A DNA stretch of 44,567 bases from Campylobacterota bacterium. Lineage in GTDB: Bacteria > Campylobacterota > Campylobacteria > Campylobacterales > Sulfurovaceae. Position numbers and translations under genes: made by a program. The stretch is taken from contig QKDN01000061.1 in the NCBI GenBank assembly GCA_003252535.1, forward strand, positions 1 to 44,567. The letters are read 5' to 3'. The notes beneath the pieces are model-generated. The model had not been told where the DNA came from and ran no database searches. It saw nothing but the letters and a program-made list of their open reading frames with translations. This document shows positions 15,492-38,336 of the stretch, piece after piece; the first letter of the stretch is position 1; the number at the start of each line of letters is the position of its first letter.

Positions 15492-18400
15492 TTAAAAACT
15501 ATACGAGAATGATATCTTCCCTTCGCTAAGGGGGAAGCCTTTTTCGCTGCTCCACGGCCAGCGGGTCTCTTCGTATTCGTTGGAGTAGGTGATCGAGAAA
15601 GGGCCTTTCTTGTAGCCGATGACGAGGCTGTAGTCACCTTCGTAGTCTTCCCTCTCGGCCTCATTGCTGAAAAAGAACACTTTGCCCTCGACGAAAAAGT
15701 CATCGCTGAAGTTCTTTTTGAGCGAGAGGGTGAGCTTGTCCTGTCGGTGGTCGAAGAAATGATCGAGCGAGGCCGATCCGCTGAGGGTATCGGTGAGCTT
15801 CCTCGAACCTGAGAAACCGAGTATCTTGTACCCTTCTGAAGGGCGGTACCTGAACTTCGTCGTGAAATAGACCTTTTCGATCATAGTCTTGTAGTTGAGC
15901 TCCCATGTACCGTCGCGGAAATCCGCGGCATTGGGGTCAGAGCTGAATTTGTTGTTCTCGTAGTTGGAGTAGAAGAAGCTCCATGCACCGGGGGTATAAT
16001 CGACATAACCGAACACATAGTAGAAGTCCGGCTGGTAGTCGACGTTCTTGTAGCGGTTGGTATCAGCTATAAGGGTGGTCGAGGCGAGAAAGTGATCGAT
16101 CGGGGTGAGGTTGAGGGTGAGGCGCACATCCTGCCGGGTCGCATCGGGTTTTGAGATGTTCTTGAGCGATGAGTTATAGGTGATGGTACCGTGCAGCCAC
16201 TCTTTGGGTTCTTTGAAGTATTTCGAAATCTCTTTGAGATAGTCGTCGGTCGGAGTGATATCGCCGAGCTTCTGGACGATCTGCTCGACGGGATTGATGG
16301 TCAGGTGTCCGGAAGACGCCGGGAGTTTTTTCTTCGCAGTGCCTGTGTTCCGTATCGGGGCAGTGGCGGTGTGGCCTGTATGTTTTTGGCTGTTTACTGT
16401 GGCAGGGACGGTGTCGGGATTTTTTGGGTTACTCCCTTGTGTCGGGAGTTTTTTCTTTTTTTTTATCTTTTTTTCGGTCTTTTCAGGTGTTCTGGAGCTT
16501 GCTTCACTGGAGACTTTTTTATCCCCTTTCGGTGTCTCTTTATGAGTTTTTTTTTCCGTCAGTGTGGCCTGGCTGTCCTTGTTTCGCTCCGGCTTTTCCG
16601 TACCGCTTTTGGGCTCTTCTCTGGTGCCGTCACTTTTCTGGGCTACAACGGCTGTGAAGAGAGGGGTTGAGACGTTGGCGTCGTCATTTGGGCTTTGGGA
16701 TTTTTTTTTTATATCGATCTTGCACGAGAGCTCGAACGAGAGGTTGTTGTCGTAAATGATCTCGTTTTCGTACGGGAGACGGTAGTCGTAACGGTAGTAG
16801 CGGTTCGCCCATAGGAAATCGTCCGAATCGATATCGCCTCTGACGACCCTGAACGTCCTGTCATCCTCGTCATTGAGATAGCGCTTGTCGAATTTCTGCT
16901 CTGGGAGCGTAATGTTGAGATCGGCCAGGTAGGCCCTCGCTTCGTCGCCGCTCGCGAACGAGCCGATCTTCACAACATAATCGCCGTTGATCCTTTCGAT
17001 GCGGACGAGCTCCTTGTCCCTGAATCTTTTGAGTATATCTTTGGCATAGCCGAAGAGTTTGATCGTCGGGGAGGTGATAGAGTATCTCTCCTTCTCGGCG
17101 AGGTGCTTGTGCATTGCGATCCTCTCCCTCAGTTTGCTGTCAAGGGCATAGTAGAAGTTTCCGGTCTTCTTGTAGAGGATCGATTCGAGGACGGCGGCAT
17201 TGGTGAAGATATTGACCGACTTGTTGACCCTCTTAAAGTCCATATAGTAACCGCCGTACCACCCTTCGCTTGAATAGTAGAAATCCTCGACACTATCCCT
17301 GAGGAGTCTGCCGTATTCGTCTGTATAGCCGTAGAGGGCATCGTAGATGAACGCCGCCTTGGTGCTGTAGGTGGCGAAGTCGTTGAGCGGTTCGTTCTTG
17401 CGGTTGAAGTCGCTCCAGTGCCTGCCATCGTTGTAGATATCGTTGGCGACGAAGAACGGGGCCTGGTCGAGGTGTTCGTAGCTCGATGTAGTGATCTTGC
17501 CGGTGATCATATACCGCTGCTTCTGTGCGAGGTAGATGTTGGAGGAGTAGTGTTTGTATTTGAGATAGTAGGGGTGCTCCATCATCGCCCAGAGGTAGGT
17601 CTCAGCATTGGTCACCTGCTGCCAGTAGCCCATCGGCACTTCGTAGTCGTAGACCCTTTTGTAGTCGAGATGACGGTCGTCGACGAAGTGGTTGTAGCTG
17701 TTGATATCAAAGAGCTTGAGTGCGGTATGGATATAGTAGTCCTGCGCCAGGTCGGAGACGATCTTGAGCTTCTCCCGGGGTACTTGTATCATCGTACTCC
17801 CGCTGCCGTTCGCATCGCTGACATTGACATCGACCATCACGATCCTGGCATTGTTGAGACCCCCCTTGTCGGCCCTGTCGAAATTGAACCGTGAGGCGAT
17901 CTCACAGACGTCGCCTGCGAATTCCGGGTACTTCGCCTGGAGGTGGTAGAGCCCCGTCATGAGGTGGGCGATATTGTAGAGATCCCACCCGCTGCCGTTG
18001 CTGTCCTCTTCGCCGAACTCTTTCGTCATGATCCCTTTGGAGGCATCGTAGTAGATATTTGGCAGTTCGTTGTTGTAGAGCGGCAGTCTCTTGAGGGTCT
18101 CCATGAGTTTGGATGTCCTCTCATGGAAGCCCTGGTCATCGATGATCCCAAGCTGATGGGCTGCGATCGTCCCCATGATCGTCTTGCCGATCGCATCGGG
18201 GCCTATGATCTCGTAATGATGGTAGGCATTGACGATACCCGTCTGAGGGTTATAGTTGTTCTCGAAGAACTTCCATGCGATCCTGGCATCCCCGATATCC
18301 CGTTCGGTGACGTCTGCGGGGGCGATATCGGTGGAGTAGGGCTCGAGGACGGTGAAATTGGTATCCCGTGGGAGACACCTGAAGTTGTTGACAGTATTCC

Positions 18401-19853
18401 TGTAGTGGTCGAACAGACCTCTTGACTCGATCTTGTTCAACTCCTGGAGCGGTCCCAGGTTGGCGAAGAGGAGCGATTCGAGGATAACGGCATTGGTGTT
18501 GAGGGTGACGGCGCTGTTGATCCCGGGTTTGGTCTCGAAGATACCTGCGTAGTACCCTTTTCCCTTGTCGTAGCTGTCATCGATATAGTCGAAGAGCTTT
18601 CGCGTGTAGTTGGTATCGAAGAGGTAGCGCATCCCGATGGCAGCCTTGGTACTCACCGCCCTGAAATCGGCGTAATCCTGCGCGTTGTGGTTGGTGGTCT
18701 TCCAGGGCTCGGCATCTTCGTAGATGGTGTTGTAGAGGAAGTAGGGTTTCTGGTTGATGTGGTCCTCTGTGATGGCGGTGAACTGGGATGTGGCTTTGTA
18801 CCGTGCCTCCTGCACCTTGTAGATGCTCTCGATATATTTGCCCGATTCGTTATCGTCCAGACCGTAGTCGAAGCCTGTATACCAGTACGATTCGCTCCCC
18901 ACGAACGCGCTGTAGAAATCCCTGGTCTCGACAGGTATTTTGACCCCGTAGAGCTCGACCAGTTTCATGAACTTGTAGCTTCGCGCTTCCGAGAGATCGA
19001 AGCCCCACAGCTCATAGCTGCGCGCGAGGTACTCTTCGTAGCCCGTGAGGGTCTCGTGGTGTGTCGATACCTGCCCATCCTCGTAGCTCGCGCCGTACAT
19101 ATTGCCGTCCACACCCGCACTGCGGCAGTATCTGTATCGGAGCAGCAGCTTCTCGATGGCAGGATTGAGGGTCTCTTCACACTGTTCGAGGAGGTTGAGC
19201 GCCGACATGAGTCTCGCAAGGTCGGCGACCGACCAGCCGATCCCTTCATCCTTGACATTGTTGCCGTAGTCGGTCATCAGCATCGATTCGGTGTTGTAGG
19301 TCTTGTTGGGGAGTTCGTTGTTGAAGAGTCGTACCGACTGCATCGTCTCGAGGAACTTGTTGATCATCGTCTCGAAGCGGTGCTGGTCGATCAGGCCGAA
19401 CTTCTTGGCGGCATAGACCGCGTAGATGGCGTTGGCCCAGTCCCATACCGAGGCAGAGGGGTATTTATCGGCTGCGTTGATAAGGCCGGTCTTTTCGTTG
19501 TAGTTGTTCTCGATATATTTCCAGGCGATCTTCGCCATCTCGAGCTGCTCTTTGGTCGGATGGGTGCGGAGTTTGCACGGATCATCGGGGCGTTCGACGA
19601 TGGTGATGTTCTCCTCGCTCGTATTTTTGTCGCAGCAGAATCGACTCATATCGATGCAGCAGCCGCGTTCCTGCGCGCCGTAGAACGGAACGGCAGATGA
19701 GGAGACATTCGTATCGGTGAGTACTGTTCCTTTTTTCGCTGTCAGGATATCGTTGTAGATGTAGATATAGAGCGGTGCTATGAGGATGATCAAAAAGAGC
19801 GCGACAACTATCGCCAGCGCTATGAGTCTGTTGCTTCTTTTCGGATCGTTCAT
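15492..19853 (-). CDS. 1453-aa envelope protein: DUF3131 x2, SPOR-like, OM barrel
   Basis: Visible in order: an inner-membrane anchor or uncleaved signal (about residues 10-33), a short CC...CC segment (65-74), and a first DUF3131 domain (about 98-468; NNYNEKTG, YPSASVWDWAN, TEDHINQKPYF). A second, diverged DUF3131 copy (about 514-900) has NNYNPQTG but lost the W-D motif. A SPOR-like stretch follows, GDYVVKIGSFASGDEA (about 955-1000). Then comes a Lys/Thr/Ser-rich low-complexity linker (about 1085-1190). The last ~235 residues are alternating amphipathic strands ending in phenylalanine, typical of an outer-membrane beta-barrel. DUF3131 occurs near polysaccharide synthases; a glycan-handling role is inferred. 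It may bridge inner membrane, peptidoglycan and outer membrane, like BcsC or PgaA in other systems. It starts two bases after the preceding gene. Confidence 0.85.
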   Translation of the reverse strand: MNDPKRSNRLIALAIVVALFLIILIAPLYIYIYNDILTAKKGTVLTDTNVSSSAVPFYGAQERGCCIDMSRFCCDKNTSEENITIVERPDDPCKLRTHPTKEQLEMAKIAWKYIENNYNEKTGLINAADKYPSASVWDWANAIYAVYAAKKFGLIDQHRFETMINKFLETMQSVRLFNNELPNKTYNTESMLMTDYGNNVKDEGIGWSVADLARLMSALNLLEQCEETLNPAIEKLLLRYRYCRSAGVDGNMYGASYEDGQVSTHHETLTGYEEYLARSYELWGFDLSEARSYKFMKLVELYGVKIPVETRDFYSAFVGSESYWYTGFDYGLDDNESGKYIESIYKVQEARYKATSQFTAITEDHINQKPYFLYNTIYEDAEPWKTTNHNAQDYADFRAVSTKAAIGMRYLFDTNYTRKLFDYIDDSYDKGKGYYAGIFETKPGINSAVTLNTNAVILESLLFANLGPLQELNKIESRGLFDHYRNTVNNFRCLPRDTNFTVLEPYSTDIAPADVTERDIGDARIAWKFFENNYNPQTGIVNAYHHYEIIGPDAIGKTIMGTIAAHQLGIIDDQGFHERTSKLMETLKRLPLYNNELPNIYYDASKGIMTKEFGEEDSNGSGWDLYNIAHLMTGLYHLQAKYPEFAGDVCEIASRFNFDRADKGGLNNARIVMVDVNVSDANGSGSTMIQVPREKLKIVSDLAQDYYIHTALKLFDINSYNHFVDDRHLDYKRVYDYEVPMGYWQQVTNAETYLWAMMEHPYYLKYKHYSSNIYLAQKQRYMITGKITTSSYEHLDQAPFFVANDIYNDGRHWSDFNRKNEPLNDFATYSTKAAFIYDALYGYTDEYGRLLRDSVEDFYYSSEGWYGGYYMDFKRVNKSVNIFTNAAVLESILYKKTGNFYYALDSKLRERIAMHKHLAEKERYSITSPTIKLFGYAKDILKRFRDKELVRIERINGDYVVKIGSFASGDEARAYLADLNITLPEQKFDKRYLNDEDDRTFRVVRGDIDSDDFLWANRYYRYDYRLPYENEIIYDNNLSFELSCKIDIKKKSQSPNDDANVSTPLFTAVVAQKSDGTREEPKSGTEKPERNKDSQATLTEKKTHKETPKGDKKVSSEASSRTPEKTEKKIKKKKKLPTQGSNPKNPDTVPATVNSQKHTGHTATAPIRNTGTAKKKLPASSGHLTINPVEQIVQKLGDITPTDDYLKEISKYFKEPKEWLHGTITYNSSLKNISKPDATRQDVRLTLNLTPIDHFLASTTLIADTNRYKNVDYQPDFYYVFGYVDYTPGAWSFFYSNYENNKFSSDPNAADFRDGTWELNYKTMIEKVYFTTKFRYRPSEGYKILGFSGSRKLTDTLSGSASLDHFFDHRQDKLTLSLKKNFSDDFFVEGKVFFFSNEAEREDYEGDYSLVIGYKKGPFSITYSNEYEETRWPWSSEKGFPLSEGKISFSYSF

Positions 19854-19855
19854 AC

Positions 19856-21166
19856 TTACTTATGTCCTAGTAACGGGCCGTTCTTGATGTAGAAGAGCGA
19901 TTCGAGGATCACGGCATTTGTGTTGCAGGTGACGGCTTTGTTGGGCTTGCCGCTCTTTTCGTAGATACCGGCATACCAGCCCCTTTCCCCCTGGAGCTCT
20001 CCGACCTTGTCGACGAGCATACGGGTGTACTTCGTCCGGTAGAGCGCATACATCGCGAACGATGCCTTGGTGCTGAGGAGGTTCAGGTCGGGGTAGGCCT
20101 TGCCCGTCTCGTCCACTGCCGCCCATGACTGGTTGTTGACGAAGATCGAGTTGTAGAGGAAGTAGGGCTTCTGATCGATATGGTCTTCGGTGACGGCGGT
20201 AGGGATACCTGTCCTTTTGTACCGCTCCTCCTGCACCTCGTAGAGACGATAGGAGAACTCCCTGGAGATATAGTCCCAGCCGAATTCGAGCCCGTCGAGC
20301 ATATACGGCTCCATCAGCACGTAGTTGTTGGCGCGGAATGTATCGCTGTCACGGATATCGAAGGGGACATCGACCCCGTAGATATCGACGAAGTCGAGGA
20401 ACCTGTCGTAGCGCATCGAGCTGAACGACTCGACGGCGAAGAGGGCGAAGACCTTGGATGAGAACTGCTCGTACCCGAGCCTACCCTCCTGGAGCATATA
20501 GGTACGGTCTTTCTTGCGTACGGCACCGTAGAGCTCACCGTTCTTCTGAAGGGAGGTGAAATCCCAGGCGGCAAGTATCTTTTTGATCTGTTCGTTATGC
20601 GCAGGGAAATTGATCGTGATATAGGAGAGGGGCGAGAGGATACGCCCGATGTCGATCACCGACCATCCGATCCCTTCATTGGTCGCCTTGTTGGCATAGT
20701 CGGTCATCTGGAGGGTCTGGGTATTGTACGCTTTGTTGGGGAGTTTCCCTTTGTAGAGGGGCAGCGTTGCGAGGGTGGAGAGTATCGCATCAAGTCTCCT
20801 GTCGAACTCCTCTTTGGTGATGATCCCCAGATCATGGGCGGCGATAAGGGCCGAGAGGTAGTTGCCGCTGTCCCAGAGGGTGGTCGAGGGGTACTTGTCC
20901 ACGGAGTTTACCATCCCGGTATTCTCGTTGTAGTTGTTCTCGAAGTATCTCCATGCGACTTTGGCCCACTCCTTCTCCTTCGCATTGAGCTCTCTTGTTT
21001 TGAGCTTGCCGGCAGAGGCAGGGGCGGTCTCTTTGAGGTTGATCATTCCGTACCCTTGTTTTCTGAGATCGATATCGTTGAGAAAGTATATCAGAACCGA
21101 GCCGACTATCAAAGCCGCCAAAAAGACGAGATGGTGCCTGGCTCTTATGAGATTTTCACTGTTCAT
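19856..21166 (-). CDS. Membrane-anchored DUF3131 domain protein
   Basis: This 436-residue protein has one N-terminal membrane helix (about 10-32) and a periplasmic DUF3131 domain covering the rest. It shares with the next gene product the motifs AWRYFENNYNENTG, DKYPSTTLWD, DEGIGWSV-like NEGIGWSV, TEDHIDQKPYFLYNS, and a late CNTNAVILESLFY. The pattern of repeated helices resembles alpha/alpha-toroid glucoamylase-like folds, so binding or trimming of a nascent polysaccharide is plausible but unproven. AAGGA nine bases upstream supports the start. It follows the glycosyltransferase gene by six bases and precedes the large gene by two. Confidence 0.85.
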   Translation of the reverse strand: MNSENLIRARHHLVFLAALIVGSVLIYFLNDIDLRKQGYGMINLKETAPASAGKLKTRELNAKEKEWAKVAWRYFENNYNENTGMVNSVDKYPSTTLWDSGNYLSALIAAHDLGIITKEEFDRRLDAILSTLATLPLYKGKLPNKAYNTQTLQMTDYANKATNEGIGWSVIDIGRILSPLSYITINFPAHNEQIKKILAAWDFTSLQKNGELYGAVRKKDRTYMLQEGRLGYEQFSSKVFALFAVESFSSMRYDRFLDFVDIYGVDVPFDIRDSDTFRANNYVLMEPYMLDGLEFGWDYISREFSYRLYEVQEERYKRTGIPTAVTEDHIDQKPYFLYNSIFVNNQSWAAVDETGKAYPDLNLLSTKASFAMYALYRTKYTRMLVDKVGELQGERGWYAGIYEKSGKPNKAVTCNTNAVILESLFYIKNGPLLGHK

Positions 21167-21172
21167 GCCATA

Positions 21173-22927
21173 TTATCCTTCAAATTTATAGAGTGCCGCT
21201 TTGACGATGGCCCAGAGTGCGAGCATATTGTACGCCGACCACATGAGGTTGACCGAGTATCCGGTCAGAAACTCACGCTCGTCGAGGAGCAGCAGAGCGG
21301 TGGCGTAGAGAATCGCGGCGATATAGAGCCCGATGATGATGAGCTGGTACTTCACCAGCGGGAGGAAGTTCCCCTGTCCGACCACCTTGGAGGTGACGAC
21401 GAAATTGATCGGTCTGTTGCGCAGTACATCCCAGAAGGCCCGCAGTACGATCGGGGAGATAGCGACGAAGAACTTCGCCCCCCGGTTGCTCTCTATCCCC
21501 CAGGTGGCGATCATCAGCGCTATCTGGTTGAAGAAGAGGAACGGGACGAGGTGGACGAAGAACTCCATCGAATAGCTCTCGACCGGCGCGATGTCGGTGA
21601 ACATATAGATAATAGGCGAGAAGAGGAGTATGGTGAGCCATATCGCCCCCGTATAGGACCAGAAAGTACTGAAGTACATCAGCTTCTGCCCCAGGCTCAG
21701 CCCTGAGCGGAAGAATCTCCCGAACTCCCTCTTGACCAGGTCGATCGTCCCCCCGGCGTAGCGGAACCGCTGTGTCGACCATGTGAGGAGGTCGAGGGGA
21801 GAGAGCATTTTGGACTCGACATCGGGGTGGAGGATCGACTTGTATTTCTTCCCCTTGTAGGCGTGGACGAGGAGGGATGTATAGATATCCTCTGACGCAT
21901 GGTAGGCAATATATTCGACATCAAGATCGTCGACAGCGCTCTTCCGGTCTTCTGCATCGTTGATACGCTCGATCCATCTTTGGGTGGCGACCATCCGCAG
22001 CGCATCGGCCCTGTGGATCGAGGTGGCGCCGCAGCAGAACGAGGCGTTGTAGTTGTTCCTGCGTCGCTGGATCACATCGAAGAACATCTTTGGATCGTTG
22101 GCGAAGATATCCTTGTCAGTCTCGATCCGTCCGAAGAGCTTCTGGACGATGTTGGCGCCGATCTCGCCGACTCTCCCCGCTTTCGCCTTCCATTTCACAT
22201 CGAGGGGGACACCTTCGGTGATATCGCAGAACCATTGCGGCGTCTGTACCCATGCGACGCTATCGTCCCTGAAGTAGCCCATGGTATTGAGGAGGATACC
22301 CTCAAAGAGTCTCGTGTCCGAATCGATAATGACGATGAAATCGCCCCCGGTGATATCCATCGCGTTGGTGATGGCGCCGGCTTTGCGCCCTTTTTTCCCC
22401 TCCCTGGTGATCTGTCTGATCCCCTCGGCTTCGGCCATCTTCGTCATCTCGTCGTTGCGGCTGTCATCGAGGAGGCACACTTCGACATCCCATGAGTCGA
22501 GCTTGTTGACCTGTTTGGCAGCCCTGATACTCTCGCGTACGAGTTCGGGGGCTTCGTTGAAGACCGGGATATAGATATCGATCTTGATCCTGCGGTCTGT
22601 ATAGAACTCTCTGTACAGCTCTTCGTTGACATCTGCCATCGTATGCGGGGGTTCCTGCTTCTGTGTGTCGTTGATACGCCAGAAGTTGATCACGACGAGG
22701 ATCGTCCCGACGAACATCATCGTCTCGGCGAAGGCCAGCGGTATGGCGAACCAAAGCGCTTCTGTATTGAGAGAGTAGTACCATCGGTAGTGGATATACC
22801 ATACTCCCATCATGAGGGTGATCACGGCAAAGAACCTGAAAGCAGACTGCGTCCATTCTGACTGGAGTTGCGGCGCTTCGGGGATTCTTTGTTCGTATTT
22901 CTCCTCGAGGAAGTAGAGTTCGTTCAC
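21173..22927 (-). CDS. BcsA-like family 2 membrane glycosyltransferase
   Basis: This 584-residue inner-membrane synthase has two N-terminal helices (about 30-80) and a cytosolic GT2 domain with DDS (154-156), the metal-binding DSD (202-204), an SED that matches the catalytic TED (about 345), and QRFRYAGG (about 389) matching the Q-x-x-R-W signature of processive synthases. Several C-terminal helices follow. It should polymerise a beta-linked glycan and feed it through the membrane. Unlike BcsA it has no C-terminal PilZ domain, so c-di-GMP does not act through that route. The GTG start overlaps the upstream stop in GTGA and has AGGA upstream. The sugar is unknown. Confidence 0.92.
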   Translation of the reverse strand: MNELYFLEEKYEQRIPEAPQLQSEWTQSAFRFFAVITLMMGVWYIHYRWYYSLNTEALWFAIPLAFAETMMFVGTILVVINFWRINDTQKQEPPHTMADVNEELYREFYTDRRIKIDIYIPVFNEAPELVRESIRAAKQVNKLDSWDVEVCLLDDSRNDEMTKMAEAEGIRQITREGKKGRKAGAITNAMDITGGDFIVIIDSDTRLFEGILLNTMGYFRDDSVAWVQTPQWFCDITEGVPLDVKWKAKAGRVGEIGANIVQKLFGRIETDKDIFANDPKMFFDVIQRRRNNYNASFCCGATSIHRADALRMVATQRWIERINDAEDRKSAVDDLDVEYIAYHASEDIYTSLLVHAYKGKKYKSILHPDVESKMLSPLDLLTWSTQRFRYAGGTIDLVKREFGRFFRSGLSLGQKLMYFSTFWSYTGAIWLTILLFSPIIYMFTDIAPVESYSMEFFVHLVPFLFFNQIALMIATWGIESNRGAKFFVAISPIVLRAFWDVLRNRPINFVVTSKVVGQGNFLPLVKYQLIIIGLYIAAILYATALLLLDEREFLTGYSVNLMWSAYNMLALWAIVKAALYKFEG

Positions 22928-24105
22928 TGAGGCTTTCCTGGCTCGCTGTAGAGTAGGGGGAGGGATTCTATCAGTTCTACCTGGTCTCCTACGAGGTGGT
23001 GGTTCTTTTTCCTGCTGTCGTCGATGAGAAAGTTGAGTCCGAGTTTTTCAAGCTCCAGGTAACACCCCTCGGGCGTTATCAGGTACTTCGAGGTGATGAT
23101 CCTCTCTTTGATCTGGAGGTTCCGGCTCACTTTGGTATAGTTGAAGACCACCGACTTTTCGATATGTGCCTTCTCCTGGATAACGCTGCCCGATTCTATC
23201 ACCGCTGGGCCCACGATCCTGACCCCTTTCTCGATGCGAACGCTGTTGCCGATATAGACAGGCGGTACGATCTCCACGTTGTCCCAGTCGATATGGCTGT
23301 TGATACCGACCCATACATCCGGTTTGACCTCCACACCGTAGGGCTTGACATCCTTGATCTTGCAAGAGAGGAGCATCATGTTGGCCCTGTAGAAATCGCT
23401 GATCGTACCGACATCGACCCAGTGGAAATCCGGTGTGTAGGCATAGAACGGGAGACCCCTTTCGGCAAGCAGCGGCAGCAGGTCGCCACCTATGTCAAAT
23501 TCCCTGTGTTCAGGGACAAGGTCGAGCACTTTGGGGTCGAAGATGTAGATACCGGTATTGATGATATCGCTTTTTGCCTCGCTGACCTTCGGCTTCTCCT
23601 GGAAGCTTCTGATCATCATGTTCTCGTCGATCACGACGACACCGTAGCGGTAGACCTCCTCTTTGGGGACCTTCTGACAGACGACCGTCGCAAGGCCGCC
23701 GTGAGATTTGTGATACTCCATCGCTGCCGTGAGATCGAGGTCTATGAGCGCGTCGCCGCAGAGGACGAGGAAAGGTTCGTCGAAGTATTGGGCGAAGTTC
23801 TGCACCTTCTTCAGACCGCCCGCCGAACCGAGCTGTTCGGGGATGATCTGTCCGTGTTCCATCTTCCCCTCGAGGGAGTAGGCGATGTGCATACCGAACT
23901 CGGCCCCGTTCTGGTAGTGGGCCTTGACCACGTCGGCCTTGTAGCTCACCGCCATGACCACTTCGTTGCAGTTATGCCTTTTGAGCAGGGAGAAGAGATA
24001 ACTGATAATAGGTTTTTCGACGATCGGGATCATCGGCTTGGGATAGGTGTAGCTCAGCGGTCGTACCCTTGTCCCCATACCGCCTCCGAGTATTACCGCT
24101 TTCAT
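22924..24105 (-). CDS. NDP-sugar pyrophosphorylase with left-handed beta-helix tail
   Basis: This makes a nucleotide-activated sugar, probably the donor for the glycosyltransferase encoded next. The 393-residue protein begins with the nucleotide-binding signature GGGMGTRVRPL and YPKPMIPI. It also has LCGDALIDLD (metal-binding aspartates) and WVDVGTISDFYRAN, as in mannose-1-phosphate guanylyl- and glucose-1-phosphate transferases. The C-terminal half has hexapeptide-type repeats (PPVYIGNSVRIEKGVRIVG). Which sugar and nucleotide it uses cannot be told. The ATG at 24105 overlaps the STAS gene stop as ATGA; the longer in-frame start at 24132 would lie inside that gene. Confidence 0.9.
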   Translation of the reverse strand: MKAVILGGGMGTRVRPLSYTYPKPMIPIVEKPIISYLFSLLKRHNCNEVVMAVSYKADVVKAHYQNGAEFGMHIAYSLEGKMEHGQIIPEQLGSAGGLKKVQNFAQYFDEPFLVLCGDALIDLDLTAAMEYHKSHGGLATVVCQKVPKEEVYRYGVVVIDENMMIRSFQEKPKVSEAKSDIINTGIYIFDPKVLDLVPEHREFDIGGDLLPLLAERGLPFYAYTPDFHWVDVGTISDFYRANMMLLSCKIKDVKPYGVEVKPDVWVGINSHIDWDNVEIVPPVYIGNSVRIEKGVRIVGPAVIESGSVIQEKAHIEKSVVFNYTKVSRNLQIKERIITSKYLITPEGCYLELEKLGLNFLIDDSRKKNHHLVGDQVELIESLPLLYSEPGKPQ

Positions 24106-24449
24106 TTGCACTCTCCGTATTCGATCAGACAATCCTGGCAGCTGAGGAGTGTGAGGAGCTGGTCAAGTCCCAGCATACTGATCAGCTCATTGGGTTGTTT
24201 CGCCAGTGAGCAGAGCCGCATCTCTCCCCCTACCTTGTGGACGTAGCGATAGATCGAAACGATCAACCCCAGCCCGATGCTATCCATAAATACTATCGAA
24301 CTCAGATCGAGATTGATCTTCTTCGAGTCGTTCTCTATGGTTTCGATCACTGTCTGCTTCGCATCCTGCGCTTGTTCAAATGTGAGCTGCTTGGTATCGA
24401 TCTTGATATATACGAATTCATCTTTGAGCTGTTTGATTATTATTTTCAT
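24102..24449 (-). CDS. STAS-domain protein, anti-sigma-antagonist type
   Basis: This 115-residue single STAS domain has the conserved phosphorylatable serine in FMDSIGLG (Ser57), placed after the LDLSSIVF strand as in SpoIIAA-like proteins. Such proteins switch partners when a serine kinase or PP2C phosphatase acts on the serine. In the Vibrio fischeri syp exopolysaccharide locus the STAS protein SypA controls biofilm, a useful precedent. Here it is the first gene of the polysaccharide operon and its stop overlaps the next start in ATGA, so its stoichiometry is tied to the synthase genes. No cognate kinase or phosphatase is in the window. Confidence 0.9.
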   Translation of the reverse strand: MKIIIKQLKDEFVYIKIDTKQLTFEQAQDAKQTVIETIENDSKKINLDLSSIVFMDSIGLGLIVSIYRYVHKVGGEMRLCSLAKQPNELISMLGLDQLLTLLSCQDCLIEYGECK

Positions 24450-24648: not shown

Positions 24649-26016
24649 TTAATTGCCGAAGACTGTATCGACGATATCCTGTTTGAATACGATATCCCCG
24701 TTCGCATGCTCATCGGTCTCATCGACAGCCGAACTTTTGATGATTCCCAGGTGGTATTCGTTGTTGAGGAAGTACTGGTACCCGTCGATATCGTGCTGCG
24801 GATCATCGAAGAGCGCCATCACGGCAAAGCCGAACATACCGTTGGCGAGGAGCTGGGTCTTGAGTGCCATGATCCCTGCATAGACGCTCTGCGCTTCGCT
24901 CTCCCAGCCACTTTTGTCTATTTCACCCGCTTCGATGGCGCCGTTGGCGTTGGCGTCGTTCCATGTGGCGGTGGCGACTGCTATGTATGGCATGAAGACC
25001 GGTTTGTTGTATTTCTCACGCAGGTATTTCGCCATATTGGCTATCCTCTGCGGGAGCTGTTCGATTCCGAGCTCATCGTTGGTATATGCACCGGGGATCG
25101 GGTCGGAATAGGTGCCGGGGTTGCTGTGGTCCCTGCCGAACTGACCGATCATCTGCTCGAACGAGATGAAGTCGAGCTTGTCGATCAGGTCGTTGTAGAC
25201 CGTCTGCGGTTTCGCCCACTCCTCTTTGTCTCCGAGGGCACAGTTGTCGTAGCCGCACCCCTCGAGCACCTCGTTGACATCCCTCGCACCCCTGTCCATC
25301 ATACAGAGCGAGAAGAGGACGCCGCTGGTGTTGTTCCTGATATTGTCGATCGCGGTCGAGATGATCGCAGAGAATGTATGCTGGTTGGTATCGGCATCGG
25401 TGACGACATTCTTGTTGAACTCCGGTTCCATGATGACGAACTTCGTACCATTGAGCTGCTTGAGAAAGTTCGCCACTTTGATATTGTGCTCGTGATAGGC
25501 TGTGATCTCGTCTTCGGTCGGGAGACCGCCGCCGAGTTCGTCGGCGAAGTACCAGTAGTTGAAGACCGGGATATACCCCTGGTCCATCGCTGCCTGTATC
25601 TCTGTGACATTGTTCCAGTTCTCCTGCCAGTACTTGGTGATCCAGTAGACGACATACTTCGAGTTCGTCAGTTTTTGTTGCAGGAGATCGAACTGTGAAG
25701 CATCGAAGTTTTTGATCTCCTGGTAGTAGCCGTTGTCCTCGATAGCGTCGTCCATCATCAGGTCGATGGAGCTGAGCCAGACAGGGTCACTCCCCGTTGT
25801 CGCATTCTGGAATCCGAACGAACCGCTTCCGCCAAAGCCGACATTGAACTCTTTGTAGAGGGGATCGGTAAAGGCGCTGTCATCGATGACAGTGTTGTTG
25901 GTATCGGTGGTGTCGTTCGTGTCATCGACAGTCGGTGTGGAGGTACCGCCACCCCCGCCGCATCCGTTCAACGTGAGAAGTAGAGCTATTGAAGAAATCC
26001 AGGAACGCAGAACCAT
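24649..26016 (-). CDS. Lipoprotein, possible glycoside-hydrolase-like TIM barrel
   Basis: This 455-residue lipoprotein has a signal peptide with lipobox TLNGC (Cys19), followed by a poly-Gly and Thr/Asp-rich tether. The body has YWITKYWQENW, PVFNYWYFADE, a FVIMEPEFNKN strand end and a later FMPYIAVATATW. Strand ends with acidic residues (MEPE) and aromatic patches resemble glycosidase TIM barrels, but no family can be named with certainty. It lies between polyamine genes and the polysaccharide operon, so processing of the exported glycan is a reasonable guess. AAGGA precedes the ATG and a TAGAATATATAT-like promoter region occupies the upstream gap. Confidence 0.6.
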   Translation of the reverse strand: MVLRSWISSIALLLTLNGCGGGGGTSTPTVDDTNDTTDTNNTVIDDSAFTDPLYKEFNVGFGGSGSFGFQNATTGSDPVWLSSIDLMMDDAIEDNGYYQEIKNFDASQFDLLQQKLTNSKYVVYWITKYWQENWNNVTEIQAAMDQGYIPVFNYWYFADELGGGLPTEDEITAYHEHNIKVANFLKQLNGTKFVIMEPEFNKNVVTDADTNQHTFSAIISTAIDNIRNNTSGVLFSLCMMDRGARDVNEVLEGCGYDNCALGDKEEWAKPQTVYNDLIDKLDFISFEQMIGQFGRDHSNPGTYSDPIPGAYTNDELGIEQLPQRIANMAKYLREKYNKPVFMPYIAVATATWNDANANGAIEAGEIDKSGWESEAQSVYAGIMALKTQLLANGMFGFAVMALFDDPQHDIDGYQYFLNNEYHLGIIKSSAVDETDEHANGDIVFKQDIVDTVFGN

Positions 26017-26088: not shown

Positions 26089-27159
26089 TTAGATGAGAGT
26101 AAATTTCGCATTGTCGATCCCGTTGAAAGTGGTCTGTTTGACAATGGTATAACCGATCATATCTTCGATGATGAGCTGCTCCCCTATACTGAGCTCATGG
26201 TCGAAACTGTATTCGCCTATGATATCCCCCGCCAGGCAGCTCATTCCGGCGATACGGTAACGGCAGGGGGTTTGGGTAGGGGAGGCGCTCCTGATCTTCG
26301 GGCTGATTCGGGTGATCGCTACATCGAGCAGGTGGGTCTCGATGGAGGTATCGACGACGGCGATCGTGATATCTTCGTAGGGGCTTTCGATGATATCGAC
26401 GACCGATGTGAGGAGGTAGCCGCACCCCCTGACTACGCTGCTCCCCGGTTCGAAGAGTACGGTGAGGCCGGGATAGCGCCGGATGAAGGGATCGAGCAGG
26501 GCTTCGAACGCCTCTCTCTCATAGCGGTCGAAGGCATGGCCGCCGCCGAGGTTGAGCCATCTGAGACGGGGGAGGAGATCGGAATAATACTTTTCTATAT
26601 GAGAGAGGAGATATTTCAGCCCCCCGATCCCCTGATCGCAGAAGACATGGAAGTGCAGCCCCTCCAGCAGTGCGGCTTCCCCCGGGTCGGAGAGGATGGC
26701 CCCGAGCAGGTCGTCACGGCTGATGCCGAGCCGAGCGGAGTAGTTGGGGTTGCAATATCGGGGCTGTCTGAGGGTGAGGCGTGGATTGATGCGGATACCG
26801 ACCGAGGTGTGCAGGGAGGCTTCCCGGGCGAATTGCCGCCACTGCGAGAGGGAGTTGAAGCTCATCGAGTCGGAGCGCTTTGCAAGAGTCTCTGCCTGCG
26901 AAGCTCTGAAGACAGGGGCATAGGTGTGGATATATCGCGCATCGCTGCCGTGCAGGGTCTCAAGCTCGTTCGTATTGCCAATACTGGCACCGTCTAGGAC
27001 TCCGAGTATCTCCCGGAGACCTTCATGGGAGTGGAAGCTCTTGATCGCGTGGAGTATCCTGATACGCGGGGTGAAGCGGAGCGAGGCGATCCGGCCAAGG
27101 TTTTGCCCGAGCAGCTCTCGCTGCATCACGAATACGGGGGTCTCAGGGGTCTCAGTCAT
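26089..27159 (-). CDS. nspC: Carboxynorspermidine/carboxyspermidine decarboxylase-like protein
   Basis: The 356-residue protein has the alanine-racemase-like fold III layout: the PLP lysine in LHAIKSF near residue 39, a phosphate-binding NLGGGHA near 200, FEPGSS near 233, and the C-terminal SCLAGDIIGEYSF that carries the catalytic cysteine and acidic residue of NspC. NspC decarboxylates carboxynorspermidine or carboxyspermidine, the last step of the alternative polyamine pathway used by Campylobacter and Vibrio. The usual partner dehydrogenase is not in this window. Its ATG overlaps the stop of the aminopropyltransferase-like gene by eight bases, so both are translated from one message. Confidence 0.8.
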   Translation of the reverse strand: MTETPETPVFVMQRELLGQNLGRIASLRFTPRIRILHAIKSFHSHEGLREILGVLDGASIGNTNELETLHGSDARYIHTYAPVFRASQAETLAKRSDSMSFNSLSQWRQFAREASLHTSVGIRINPRLTLRQPRYCNPNYSARLGISRDDLLGAILSDPGEAALLEGLHFHVFCDQGIGGLKYLLSHIEKYYSDLLPRLRWLNLGGGHAFDRYEREAFEALLDPFIRRYPGLTVLFEPGSSVVRGCGYLLTSVVDIIESPYEDITIAVVDTSIETHLLDVAITRISPKIRSASPTQTPCRYRIAGMSCLAGDIIGEYSFDHELSIGEQLIIEDMIGYTIVKQTTFNGIDNAKFTLI

Positions 27160-28666
27160 ACCACTTGTTCCAGTCCGCCTCGTAGTAGTAGATGAGCCTG
27201 TGGTCGCTCAGACGGTTGATCTCTACATCGAGCTTCTCCATGTCAGCGGGGAAGAGGAGCATTGTGTCGAGCATGTCCCGGCTCAGATATCTGAGCCCTT
27301 TGATCTCTCCGGGGGCCCTGAGGGGAATATCGTACCCAGAAGCGAGTACGAAGCCCCATTCGCCGAAGCTCGGTACATAGGTGTGGTAGGGGATGGTTTT
27401 CAGGCCTGTGCTCTCTATTGTTTTCTCGATACACCAGAAGGCACGCCTGGAGTAGAGCGGGGAGGTCGACTGGGTCACCATCGCGCCCATTCTGGAGAGG
27501 TGCGCTGCGACGAGCGTGTAGAATGTCTGCGAATAGAGTCTCCCCAGCGAGAGGTTGTCCGGGTCGGGTAGATCGATGATGATGACGTCGTACAGTTCGC
27601 TGGCGTTCTCGAGGAACTTCCATGCATCTTCGTTGACCACCTTGACCCTTTTGTCATGGAACGATTGCCCGTTGATCGCACTGAATGCAGGGTTGTCCCG
27701 AAAGAGCTTCGTCATCGCCGGGTCGAGATCGACGAGGGTGATGCGGGACACATCCGGATATTTGAGCACTTCCCTGAGGCTCATCCCGTCACCCCCGCCG
27801 ATAATGAGGATATTCTCATGTGCCCTGACGCTGCCCATAACAGGGTGGACGAGGGATTCGTGGTAGCGATACTCGTCGAGGGTATCGAACTGGATCGCAC
27901 CGTTGATATAGAACTGGATGCGCCCTTTCGACGAGGTGGCGACGAGTTTCTGATAGGGGGTCTGCTCCGAGTAGATGATGGGGCTGCGGTAGAGTTTGCT
28001 CTCGATGAAGGAGGTAAGGTCCTGCGAGTGGAACAGTCCGGTGAGCAGCGCCGTACCGATCAGCGGGATGATGACGATATATATTTTGCCGAGGAGTTCA
28101 CGAAAGAGGTACCATGCCATGAAACCGACAAGAAGATTGAGTATCCCGAGCAGGAAACCAGTCTGCATCAGTCCGAGTTGGGGCAGGAGCACCATCGGGA
28201 AGAGCAGCGCTGCAAAGAGCGCACCGATATAATCGAGGGTAAAGACATTGGAGATATTGCTCTTGAGCGAGAAGCTTGAACGGAGGATCCGGATGATGAG
28301 GGGTATCTCCATCCCCAGCATACTTCCCAGCGCTACGGTAGTAAGGTAGAGGAAACCCTGGTAGTTCTGGATATAGGCGAAGGCATAGAAGAGGAGGAGT
28401 GCCGAAAAGCCGCCAATGACGGAGATCGAGAGCTGCAGGATGACAAAAGCCTTTTCCAGAGATTCCTCGACAAAGCGCGAGAGCCATGCCCCTATCCCCA
28501 TCGAGCTCATAAAAAGGCCGATCACCAGGGAAAAGTGATAGACCGAGTCGCCGAGGAGGTAGGATGAAATCGTGCTCTCGAGCAGTTCATACACCAGACC
28601 GCATACGGCGATGACAAAAGTGCCGAACAGTAGCGCTGTCTCTCTGGGACGTTCGGTATAGTGCAT
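27152..28666 (-). CDS. Membrane-fused spermidine synthase-like protein
   Basis: This 504-residue protein has about seven N-terminal membrane helices (about 10-215) and a cytosolic Rossmann domain of the spermidine-synthase type (about 225-500). That domain has ILIIGGGDGMSLREVL for the nucleoside part of the donor, VDLDPAM, and IDLPDPD at the position of the conserved D-x-x-D-P loop. Such fusions are widespread, but their substrates are mostly unproven. It may make an unusual polyamine at the membrane. It starts 13 bases after the LRR gene and overlaps the NspC-like gene, giving a three-gene unit. Confidence 0.85.
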   Translation of the reverse strand: MHYTERPRETALLFGTFVIAVCGLVYELLESTISSYLLGDSVYHFSLVIGLFMSSMGIGAWLSRFVEESLEKAFVILQLSISVIGGFSALLLFYAFAYIQNYQGFLYLTTVALGSMLGMEIPLIIRILRSSFSLKSNISNVFTLDYIGALFAALLFPMVLLPQLGLMQTGFLLGILNLLVGFMAWYLFRELLGKIYIVIIPLIGTALLTGLFHSQDLTSFIESKLYRSPIIYSEQTPYQKLVATSSKGRIQFYINGAIQFDTLDEYRYHESLVHPVMGSVRAHENILIIGGGDGMSLREVLKYPDVSRITLVDLDPAMTKLFRDNPAFSAINGQSFHDKRVKVVNEDAWKFLENASELYDVIIIDLPDPDNLSLGRLYSQTFYTLVAAHLSRMGAMVTQSTSPLYSRRAFWCIEKTIESTGLKTIPYHTYVPSFGEWGFVLASGYDIPLRAPGEIKGLRYLSRDMLDTMLLFPADMEKLDVEINRLSDHRLIYYYEADWNKWYD

Positions 28667-28679
28667 CTGTTCCTGCTGC

Positions 28680-30713
28680 TCAGTAGAGGATATGATAACT
28701 CTTCTCCTTGAGCTTCAGAAGCCACTCTTTGATGAGGTTGTTCGATGCAAAAAGGACCTGGAGGTTGTTCTCGCGGAGATTGAGCTCGGTGAGGTTGAGC
28801 AGCTGGGTGATGGTCAGCGGGAGCTTTTTGAGCATATTGCTTTCGAGGTTGAGTATCCTGAGATTCTCAAGCTCGCCGATCTCTTTGGGGAGCTTCTCGA
28901 TCTTGTTGTTCCAGAGGTCGAGATGTTCGAGCCTGGCGAGCTTCCCTATCTCCGGGGGTACTGTCTTGAGCCTGTTGCTCTGGAGAGTGAGATCGACGAG
29001 GTTCTCCAGGTTGCCGATGGTATCGGGGATCTCTATGAGATGGTTCATCGAGAGGCTCAGGTGGGTCAGCTGCGTCAGGTTCCCTATCTCAGTGGGGAGG
29101 AGGATGATCCTGTTCCTCCAGAGGTTGAGTACCTTGAGCTTGCTCAGTTTCCCTATCTCGGAAGGGAGTCTCGTGATCATGTTGCCCCATTTGCGCTGGT
29201 TGCTTCGGAGGTCGCCCCTGAGGTTGAGCTCGACGAGATTGTAGAGGTCCCCTATCTGGTTCGGGAGGGTGGCGAGCTTGTTGGCTCCGGCGTTCAGATA
29301 GGTGAGGCTGGTAATATTGCATATCGTGGAGGGGAGCTGCGTGAGCTCGTTCCCCTCGACATTGAGCCTTTTGAGATGATTGAGGTTGCCGATCTCTTCG
29401 GGGAGGTCGGTGAGCTGGTTATTGGCAAGGTTGAGCTCTGCAAGGTTGGTGAGATTGCCTATCTCGGAAGGGAGATCGACCAGGTTATGGTTGCTCAGGT
29501 CAAGCTTCGTGAGCCTGAAGAGGAATCCGATCTCGCGGGGCAGTGTATAGAGCTGGTTCCCTTCGAGCCTGAGCCTGGTAAGGTTCATCAGGTTGCCGAT
29601 CTCTGCAGGGAGTTCGGTAAGCTGGTTATGGCTGAGGTTGAGCTCGCTCAGCTGTACCAGCGAACCCACTTCTGCCGTGAGATTGTTGAGCTGGTTGTGA
29701 CTCATATCGAGCACGGTCAGGTTGACCATATGGGATATCCCCAGAGGCAGCCTCCTGAGGTCATTGTGGCGGAGGTTGAGATGTCGCAGCTTCGTCAGTT
29801 TGTTGATCCCCAGGCTCAGACGCTCGAGATGGTTGGCGCTCAGGTCGAGGGTGACGAGACTGGTGAGGTACTCCAGTTCCATCGGCAGTTTTTTGAACCT
29901 GTTGGAGTGGAGGGTCAGTTTGGCAAGTTTGCCGAGCTCGGTTATCTCGGAGGGGAGATCGCTGAGGAGGTTACCGTGGAGGTAGAGGGTGCGAAGGTTG
30001 GTCAGCTCCCCGATCTCCGGAGGGAGGGTGTGGAGCTTATTGTTCGCGAGGCTGAGCTTGCTCAGTGTTTTGATCTTGCCAAGGTCCTCCGGGAGCGAAG
30101 TGAGGTTGAAATCGCCGAGGTTGAGCTCGGTGATGTTGAACATGATCGTCCGATCCCTGGGGAGTCCCTTCCAGTAGCCCCCCTCCTTGGTATTGCGGTC
30201 TACGATCCACTCAAGATCGTGCACGCCGTGCTCATCGGCCCATTTCCAGAGTCTTTTGATCCAGTTGTCGTCGATCGCTGCCGGTTTGTTGTCGGTAAGG
30301 AGCTTTTTGGTCAGCGAGAGGAAGTTCCTGCTGCGTCCGAGCGCTTTGTCGTGGTAGTCACCTGCACGCTCCTGCGGCTTCTGTGATCCTACCGATCCCC
30401 CGGCATCGGTAGCGGCTGAGGAATCTGCCACGACAGTGTCCGCGCCGCTCTGTACTGCGCTGCCGGCATTGGGCTGGAGCTTCTGGATGATCTTGGAGCG
30501 GAAAGCGTTTCGGGACTGGGATTGCGGGGTCTGGGGTGCTTCCGGAGCGATTTCAGTCTGCGTTGGTTCAGAGGGCACCGGGGCAGGTTCAGACTTCTTC
30601 CCCTGTGCTTCCCTGATCTTTTGGGCGAGTTTTTTCAAACCGTGATAAGCTTCATGCTCTTCACTATCGTGTACCGAATATGACTGCTCATCACCGTTGA
30701 ATTTTTTGGTCAC
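28680..30713 (-). CDS. Cytoplasmic leucine-rich-repeat protein, about 19 repeats
   Basis: The 677-residue protein lacks a signal peptide. Residues 1-150 are charged and rich in Pro, Gln and Ser, probably disordered. A short folded segment (about 155-205) precedes about 19 leucine-rich repeats of 23 residues with consensus L-x-x-L-P-x-E-I-G-x-L-x-x-L-x-x-L-x-L-x-x-N-x, one (repeat 13) with a roughly 10-residue insertion around GDLRSNQRKWG. A short basic tail closes it. The repeats form a curved solenoid for binding another protein. No enzyme domain is visible. It starts GTG with GGAG eight bases upstream, and heads the unit with the polyamine genes, 13 bases before the next. Confidence 0.9.
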   Translation of the reverse strand: MTKKFNGDEQSYSVHDSEEHEAYHGLKKLAQKIREAQGKKSEPAPVPSEPTQTEIAPEAPQTPQSQSRNAFRSKIIQKLQPNAGSAVQSGADTVVADSSAATDAGGSVGSQKPQERAGDYHDKALGRSRNFLSLTKKLLTDNKPAAIDDNWIKRLWKWADEHGVHDLEWIVDRNTKEGGYWKGLPRDRTIMFNITELNLGDFNLTSLPEDLGKIKTLSKLSLANNKLHTLPPEIGELTNLRTLYLHGNLLSDLPSEITELGKLAKLTLHSNRFKKLPMELEYLTSLVTLDLSANHLERLSLGINKLTKLRHLNLRHNDLRRLPLGISHMVNLTVLDMSHNQLNNLTAEVGSLVQLSELNLSHNQLTELPAEIGNLMNLTRLRLEGNQLYTLPREIGFLFRLTKLDLSNHNLVDLPSEIGNLTNLAELNLANNQLTDLPEEIGNLNHLKRLNVEGNELTQLPSTICNITSLTYLNAGANKLATLPNQIGDLYNLVELNLRGDLRSNQRKWGNMITRLPSEIGKLSKLKVLNLWRNRIILLPTEIGNLTQLTHLSLSMNHLIEIPDTIGNLENLVDLTLQSNRLKTVPPEIGKLARLEHLDLWNNKIEKLPKEIGELENLRILNLESNMLKKLPLTITQLLNLTELNLRENNLQVLFASNNLIKEWLLKLKEKSYHILY

Positions 30714-30821: not shown

Positions 30822-31670
30822 GAGTATGGCTTTGAAGCTGTAGAGGGTGCTCTGGATGCGGAGTATCGATTCTTCTTTGATATTTTCCATGAAACTTTCG
30901 AACTTGTCCTTTTCTTTCCATTTCGGATTTGTGACGTGGGCGAGTTTCTCAAGCTCTTTTTTGGCCTCCATCTTGATCCCGACCTGGTCGATGAGGCCAA
31001 CCTTCTTGGCTCTGTTCGCAGAGAAGATATGGGCATCTGCATAGAGCTTGGAGTCCCTGTTCTCGAGCTTTCTGGCCCTAGCGACATCGGAGACGAAGAG
31101 GTCATAGGTATCTTTGGTGAGCTGTTCGAGCTCGGCGCGCTCTTCGGGCGTCCACTCGCGCATCGGGGTTCCCGCCTGCTTGTAGGTACCTTGCTGTACG
31201 GTCTGGGGTTTGATACCGATCGAGTCCAACAGCTCCTTGACATTCGCACTCTCCATGATGACACCGATGGAGCCGACGATAGCGCCGGGGTTTGCGATGA
31301 TCTTGTTGGCATAGATCGCGCTGTAGTAGCTGCCGCTGGCCATGATACCGCTGGCGTAGGCGACGACGGGCTTTTGTTTGGCAAGTTCCCTGATTGCGTA
31401 GGATATCTCGATGGACGGAGGGACCGATCCTCCCGGGGAGTTGATATCGAGAAGCACCCCTTTGATGTTCTTGTTCCTGATCGCCTCTTCGATCTCCTTG
31501 ACGACACTGTCGGCATCGAGGATCGTCCCTACGACCTTGATCTCCTGGAGATTGGGCGGATTGGCGGGGTCTTCATTCGGGGCAAGCGCCGCGATGACGA
31601 TAAGAAGGAAGAGCATCCCCCAGAAATGGTCGCCGATCCATTTGATCAGGTTTCCTATAGCACTAAACAT
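30819..31670 (-). CDS. sppA: Signal peptide peptidase SppA
   Basis: SppA is a membrane-anchored serine protease that degrades signal peptides left in the membrane after export. The 283-residue protein has one N-terminal helix (about 15-30), DINSPGGSV, the catalytic serine in SGIMASGSYY and the general-base lysine in GTYKQAG, as in the short, single-domain SppA found in Campylobacterota (C. jejuni Cj0068 type). AAGGAG six bases before the ATG fixes the start. It overlaps the end of the upstream amidohydrolase gene by eight bases, so the two are cotranscribed. Confidence 0.94.
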   Translation of the reverse strand: MFSAIGNLIKWIGDHFWGMLFLLIVIAALAPNEDPANPPNLQEIKVVGTILDADSVVKEIEEAIRNKNIKGVLLDINSPGGSVPPSIEISYAIRELAKQKPVVAYASGIMASGSYYSAIYANKIIANPGAIVGSIGVIMESANVKELLDSIGIKPQTVQQGTYKQAGTPMREWTPEERAELEQLTKDTYDLFVSDVARARKLENRDSKLYADAHIFSANRAKKVGLIDQVGIKMEAKKELEKLAHVTNPKWKEKDKFESFMENIKEESILRIQSTLYSFKAIL

Positions 31671-32883: not shown

Positions 32884-32921
32884 CTTTTTCTTCTTCGCTC
32901 CTCTTGCCAAATCTCTCCGCT

Positions 32922-32927
32922 ATTGTA
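32922..32927 (-). promoter_or_regulatory. Candidate -10 box for the deaminase-sppA unit
   Basis: TACAAT on the minus strand, about 39 bases upstream of the ATG at 32883, in the divergent control region shared with aroQ. Confidence 0.4.
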
Positions 32928-33025
32928 TCACAATGAATTTCAACTTCCTTTTTACTTTTGAAACGCTCCGTTATCCTCTTGCCACTCACCCGGGGCATTT
33001 TGCTATCAGTTTAAAAATTTTTGGA

Positions 33026-38279: not shown

Positions 38280-38336
38280 CGAAGCATCTCATAGAAAAGG
38301 GTTGGTTGTCTGGCAATGGGAATCATAGGAGTCGGT

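Follow-up and report, generated by a model that had tools for sequence, protein, structure and literature searches.

Does the run of coupled minus-strand genes in this Campylobacterota contig encode an undescribed exopolysaccharide system, as the first-pass annotation proposed, and how does its largest protein come to end in a barrel? The question is addressed here by combining sequence profiles, comparison of related loci and structure models for the window, which is the whole stretch of 44,567 nucleotides.

Gene content of the operon

The five minus-strand open reading frames described earlier, and the translationally coupled junctions between them, were all recovered. The STAS stop (24102) and the nucleotidyltransferase ATG (24105) overlap as ATGA, the nucleotidyltransferase stop (22924) and the GT2 GTG (22927) overlap as GTGA, and 6 bases separate GT2 from the DUF3131 gene and 2 bases the DUF3131 gene from that of a giant protein. 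Pfam supports the domains first assigned, namely STAS, NTP_transferase, Glycos_transf_2, DUF3131 and two DUF3131 stretches in the giant protein, with no PilZ match, and within the proteins scanned there was likewise no match to BcsB, BcsC, Pel, Pga, or Alg domains. The five-gene unit was nevertheless incomplete, as a lipoprotein gene forms a sixth member. The features are as follows.

24649..26016, minus strand: lipoprotein, 455 aa, lipobox NGC; its gene directly precedes STAS in four Sulfurovum clusters
24102..24449, minus strand: STAS-domain protein, 115 aa, FMDSIGLG phosphoserine-type motif; PF01740, 7.6e-14
22924..24105, minus strand: NDP-sugar (sugar-1-phosphate) nucleotidyltransferase, either GDP-Man or UDP-Glc type; PF00483, 9.7e-56
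21173..22927, minus strand: processive GT2 synthase, 584 aa, without PilZ; PF00535, 2.2e-13
19856..21166, minus strand: membrane-anchored periplasmic DUF3131 protein, 436 aa; PF11329, 2.5e-137
15492..19853, minus strand: giant protein, 1453 aa; PF11329 in two stretches, 1.1e-187
18459..19541, minus strand: giant protein, DUF3131 domain 1; equivalents of the candidate acids E227/E327 retained
17160..18290, minus strand: giant protein, DUF3131 domain 2; candidate acids replaced by V and Y
16914..17045, minus strand: giant protein, SPOR-like segment, aa 937-980; PF05036, E 0.025, 15.3 bits, below cut-off
16701..16710, minus strand: giant protein, A10 slippery tract, ATA AAA AAA AAA TCC, in frame; site of the frame change in 12/12 split relatives
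15495..16196, minus strand: giant protein, predicted 14-strand outer-membrane beta-barrel, aa 1220-1452, C-terminus SFSYSF; AF2 model

The giant protein thus runs from an N-terminal hydrophobic anchor through two DUF3131 domains, the SPOR-like segment and a Lys-rich linker to the C-terminal barrel; a weak SPOR match is also present in loci L011 and L130. The lipoprotein gene lies directly upstream of STAS in L011, L013, L022, and L023 (Sulfurovum; 55-61% identity) and adjoins the cluster in L019 (Hydrogenimonas) and three Ferrimonas loci, and because it recurs in this way beside related clusters, it is counted here as part of the unit. The lipoprotein, which contains an invariant EPEFNK motif, gave no match in Pfam or the PDB. 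Its Ferrimonas homologues reach about 750 aa, exceeding it in length, and match TPR weakly (L042, L080, and L081, about 16000-18300, minus strand).

Directly upstream of the lipoprotein gene lie an nspC-like decarboxylase gene and a polyamine aminopropyltransferase gene of the speE type (26089-28666, minus strand), followed by a gene for a 677-aa LRR protein (28680-30713, minus strand) with matches below cut-off to LRR effector and internalin models. The polyamine genes are not conserved with the cluster, and both they and the LRR gene were rejected as members of the unit, as they do not recur in related loci. A promoter scan across the region gave results at chance level. Elsewhere, the window encodes a NACHT/STAND-type NTPase, possibly a defense gene (216-2183, plus strand), and a 516-aa open reading frame with no Pfam match (31411-32961, plus strand).

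Distribution and subtypes

When genomes were scanned with the GT2 alignment, 356 relatives were detected and the best 80 of them retrieved; the seeds were DUF3131-associated, and the counts given here therefore describe a GT2 subfamily and are no unbiased census. The co-occurrence outside this genome on which the first-pass annotation had made its proposal depend was found, with STAS, GT2, DUF3131, and barrel genes recurring across phyla. Relatives are present in Proteobacteria, Desulfobacterota, Ignavibacteria/Kapaibacteria, cyanobacteria, and other Campylobacterota. Of the non-Campylobacterota loci, 44 span at least 18 kb; in these, the genes within about 10 kb include DUF3131 (44 loci), SpoIIE (44), STAS (43), RsbW (43), the barrel (30), the nucleotidyltransferase (19), and OpgC (12). 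The system is patchy within Campylobacterota, DUF3131 being found in 14/175 genomes of the family, 10/399 sampled from the order, and 7/397 sampled from the phylum. Plasmids carry copies of the system in Vibrio, Pantoea, Salmonella, Paracoccus, and Nostoc, and the annotated Salmonella and Pantoea plasmid copies have the same gene set together with OpgC. Plasmids yielded no close copy of the cluster in the window, and complete E. coli genomes none of the Salmonella-type cluster.

Two versions can be distinguished in Campylobacterota. The full version, for example L017, encodes SpoIIE-REC, STAS, RsbW, nucleotidyltransferase, GH2, GT2, a protein with an OmpA-like C-terminus, DUF3131, OpgC, a double DUF3131 protein, and the barrel, while the reduced subtype (the window, L011, L013, L022, and L023) consists of lipoprotein, STAS, nucleotidyltransferase, GT2, DUF3131, double DUF3131, and barrel. 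In some of the full clusters, GT2 is separated from DUF3131 by the gene with the OmpA-like C-terminus, which is Lys/Pro rich (L017, 11759-13495, plus strand).

From this conservation, the operon appears to be a widespread, apparently unstudied, synthase-dependent polysaccharide system, in agreement with the initial view of it as undescribed. The sole mention of it found in open-access papers is a gene list for Klebsiella pneumoniae accessory "block 3b" (PMC12974863), which holds a cellulose-synthase-like enzyme, three DUF3131 proteins, OpgC, a hybrid kinase, and an anti-sigma factor with its antagonist, and is evidently the same system. The list belongs to a population paper without functional tests and mentions neither a fused barrel nor a slippery junction.

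The DUF3131 fold

The AF2 model of the 436-aa DUF3131 protein (pLDDT 93, pTM 0.89, helix at 10-31) has the (alpha/alpha)6-barrel fold of the SGL clan (GH144/162/189). The best PDB matches returned by Foldseek were the GH189 cyclization domain together with beta-1,2-glucanases from several families (E to 8.6e-12, TM about 0.6); BcsZ is a weaker match (1.5e-5). Profile searches independently point the same way, with residues 56-153 matching GH189 at 2.3e-7 and residues 57-192 at 2.5e-9. We therefore predict with confidence that DUF3131 adopts the fold of the beta-1,2-glucanases and cyclic-glucan synthases of GH144/162/189. DUF3131 resembles the SGL clan enzymes (GH189; PMC12102758, PMC10834661) in fold and in a detectable N-half sequence relationship, but here the synthase and the GH-like domain are separate proteins and the catalytic residues of DUF3131 are only candidates. 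By eye, E227 (QEGRL) resembles the GH189 acid E1356 (SEARL) and E327 its nucleophile region, while the profile alignment fails in the C-half, beyond residue 192; these two residues are offered as candidate catalytic acids and as a lead only. A residue table shows both retained in domain 1 of the giant protein and lost in domain 2. No mention of DUF3131 was found in PMC12102758, where the SGL clan is defined, or in PMC10834661. A search of the open-access literature returned three papers naming DUF3131, none of them on its function, no occurrence of PF11329, and no paper combining these genes.

Synthase, barrel, and a possible export route

The nearest PDB chains to the GT2 protein are those of BcsA, and the processive GT2 motifs LLDDS, DSDT, SED, and QRFRY (D, DxD, TED-like, and QxxRW-like) are conserved in the alignment. 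Against the CelA equivalog model, it reaches 124 bits, far under the cut-off of 699, and no PilZ c-di-GMP domain was matched at E<=0.1. Two convergent genes for GGDEF-EAL proteins lie near the operon of this PilZ-less synthase (38316-42671, plus strand, and 42668-44566, minus strand), and one of the two proteins carries NMT1 and SBP_bac_3 as its sensor domains. The operon resembles BcsABCZ in its processive GT2, its periplasmic alpha/alpha-barrel hydrolase-like protein, and its outer-membrane barrel; it differs in having no PilZ, BcsB, or TPR-containing BcsC, in its low CelA score, and in being controlled, as we propose, through STAS and not c-di-GMP.

The probable outer-membrane exit placed in the giant protein by the first-pass annotation is now backed by a structure model, the C-terminal 304 residues forming a 14-strand barrel in AF2 (pLDDT 85, pTM 0.76). 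A PDB search with this model returned general porin, KdgM, AlgE, and FapF-type matches, none of them specific, and Pfam detected no TPR scaffold in the window proteins. The barrel is homologous to stand-alone barrels of the clusters in Vibrio, Salmonella, and Pantoea; many of these bear a signal peptide of their own, and in Salmonella and Pantoea they stand beside OpgC.

It can be hypothesized that the nucleotidyltransferase makes the donor and that the cellulose-synthase-like GT2 polymerizes the chain and translocates it across the inner membrane, where the membrane-anchored DUF3131 proteins would trim, transglycosylate, or guide it in the periplasm and the 14-strand barrel would release it outward. 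Taken as a whole, the reading of the operon as a synthase-dependent system of glucan type, with STAS control and a barrel reached by slippage, is in our judgment probable, on the evidence of sequence and structure models.

The nature of the polymer and its destination can both be read differently. The beta-1,2-glucanase-type fold of DUF3131 points to a glucan, and kinship of DUF3131 and GT2 together suggests a glucan-like product, with a GDP-sugar polymer possible. The nucleotidyltransferase fits awkwardly, being most like a GDP-mannose enzyme: its best NCBIfam model is mannose-1-phosphate guanylyltransferase, and GH2, a family that includes beta-mannosidases, is encoded in many clusters. A mannan or other GDP-sugar polymer to the exclusion of glucan is still distinctly unlikely, as the guanylyltransferase score (174.5 bits) lies far below the family cut-off of 440, the enzyme is missing from many relatives (present in 19/44 non-Campylobacterota loci), and the relatives of GT2 and DUF3131 act on glucans. 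A glucan could also stay in the periplasm, like the osmoregulated periplasmic glucans, with DUF3131 proteins as hydrolases and the barrel an unrelated porin; the match of DUF3131 to beta-1,2-glucan enzymes and the presence in many clusters of OpgC, of the OPG succinyltransferase family, would suit such a product. Against this stands the barrel itself, which is encoded with the synthase in the window and, as a homologue, in 30/44 well-covered non-Campylobacterota loci, and which this lineage has joined to DUF3131 as a fusion. In Vibrio and relatives, moreover, lipoboxes are present on the second and third DUF3131 copies, which are probably located at the outer membrane. We consider a periplasmic product unlikely and favor export through the barrel.

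Proposed STAS control

The STAS protein scores 55.6 bits against TIGR00377, above the cut-off of 53.45, and the phosphoserine motif is kept in the window (FMDSIGLG) and is DSSGLG-like in most relatives. No genes for an RsbW kinase or SpoIIE phosphatase stand beside the window copy, and in the window's genome, no stand-alone RsbW was found and the two SpoIIE open reading frames are unlinked; the STAS protein may therefore answer to distant partners or work alone. The suggestion of a SypA-like STAS switch in place of PilZ thus holds for the switch and for the absence of PilZ, but most relatives have a complete SpoIIE-STAS-RsbW set, which the window's subtype lacks, and the lone SypA-like STAS would therefore be a derived state. 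Control through a STAS partner switch would involve a kinase and a phosphatase that are encoded in most relatives and not beside this copy.

A STAS protein with a phosphorylatable serine likewise controls polysaccharide in the syp system of Vibrio fischeri (SypA/SypE; PMC4517449). The 18-gene syp set is, however, absent from the window and its relatives, and the relatives encode kinase and phosphatase in a gene each. Burkholderia bspP, which links SpoIIE with cellulose, was rejected as a match because it is a different protein.

A slippery junction ahead of the barrel

The structure model supports the first-pass annotation in placing a barrel in the giant protein, but that annotation missed the A10 tract at the junction and the separate coding of the barrel in most relatives. 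Of 13 distinct Campylobacterota loci with double DUF3131 and barrel, 11 are split and 2 continuous (L126, broken in several places, was omitted). The barrel lies in the -1 frame in all 11 split loci in which it was detected, and when L166 is counted, the downstream frame is -1 and signal-less in 12/12 usable split loci. An in-phase A_AAA_AAN tract (A9-A11, or A6G) lies inside the overlap of the two frames in all 12. In the 11 loci with a detected barrel, this overlap measures 13-109 nt and the 0-frame stop follows 0-97 nt past the tract, often as the very next codon. Runs of at least nine A number 10 in 584 nt of overlap versus 5 in the remaining 46.5 kb of the same genes. None of the barrel frames in Campylobacterota has a signal peptide, and their first start codon comes 23-88 codons into a linker that is already coding-like.

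L166 was found in a held-out genome, that of L016, and shows the predicted site, GCA AAA AAG AAT TAG, with the -1 frame open to a contig end that comes before the barrel. The short A6G sites of L130 and L166 are identical, in DNA that is 79.6% identical in the second DUF3131 domain. Downstream stem-loops are clear in L130 (-19.0 kcal/mol, z -3.0), moderate in L166 (-11.6 kcal/mol, z -1.6), weak in L144 and L011, and absent at most A9-A11 sites; no SD-like stimulators were evident. Given stimulators, few heptamers in E. coli shift as readily as A_AAA_AAG (PMC4066793), and runs of nine A are transcriptional slippage sites, for example in Thermus dnaX (PMC1088944). The dnaX genes (E. coli A_AAA_AAG, Thermus A9; PMC4066793, PMC1088944) share these slippery sequences and the making of two products from one gene, and the stem-loop frameshifts of dnaX resemble the short sites of L130 and L166; here, the difference would be that the longer product gains an outer-membrane barrel.

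This pattern looks like programmed slippage that sets whether a periplasmic protein carries an outer-membrane barrel. Ribosomes shifting into the -1 frame at A_AAA_AAN, or slippage during transcription of A9-A11, could yield in vivo both a periplasmic double DUF3131 protein and a double DUF3131-barrel fusion tied to the outer membrane, with slippage setting the ratio. The window's own copy keeps its tract in frame, and there the fusion would be the default, with slippage giving the short form; as this open reading frame is continuous, recoding there is proposed by analogy with the split relatives. An uncleaved N-terminal hydrophobic segment would make the long form an envelope-spanning protein. 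It is possible, if somewhat short of an even chance, that slippage balances a free periplasmic glucan-processing protein against such an envelope-spanning barrel form, with an uncleaved anchor, SPOR-like contact to peptidoglycan, and a Lys-rich linker.

The main rival, which may coexist with recoding, is that the tract is a phase-variable contingency locus in which replication slippage toggles the barrel between cells without programmed recoding. Phase variation at homopolymers is a common phenomenon among Campylobacterota. The continuous loci are the window (A10) and L013 (A11), which read through where their kin do not; L022 and L023, close relatives with A10, are split, so that the frame flips between A10 and A11 in near-identical relatives, and in a tree of the double DUF3131 part, L013 falls within a group of split relatives and the window branches at the base of the reduced subtype. 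Toggling would, however, be expected to leave both out-of-frame phases, whereas all 12 split loci use the one -1 frame (about 0.001 for 11 by coin toss), and in two of them the site is a stable A6G heptamer followed by a stem-loop, which is no hypermutable tract. Phase variation alone is accordingly rather unlikely, though it deserves more weight than an assembly artifact, in which homopolymer base errors would break a continuous gene. The loci are mostly metagenome assembled, A9-A11 runs are error prone, and two loci are intact, but all 12 breaks fall in the same direction and place, the 0-frame stop comes immediately, often as the next codon, and assemblers do not miscall short sites such as the identical ones of L130 and L166. 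Sequencing error was rejected as the main cause of the split on the basis of this constant direction and place and the two short sites, and an artifact is very unlikely. Replication slippage and assembly error do also change the length of long A-runs, and the degraded L126 does not fit the pattern.

Implications

If the reading of the operon as a slippage-controlled export system is correct, it describes a polysaccharide system widespread across several phyla, including human-associated Enterobacterales. It would also provide the first role for the DUF3131 family, and the first for partner-switch control of a synthase, neither of which has been assigned so far, and a link of DUF3131 to beta-1,2-glucan chemistry follows from it as a testable prediction. 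Programmed slippage at the junction would in addition be an unusual use of recoding, one that decides between a periplasmic protein joined to an outer-membrane pore and one free of it.
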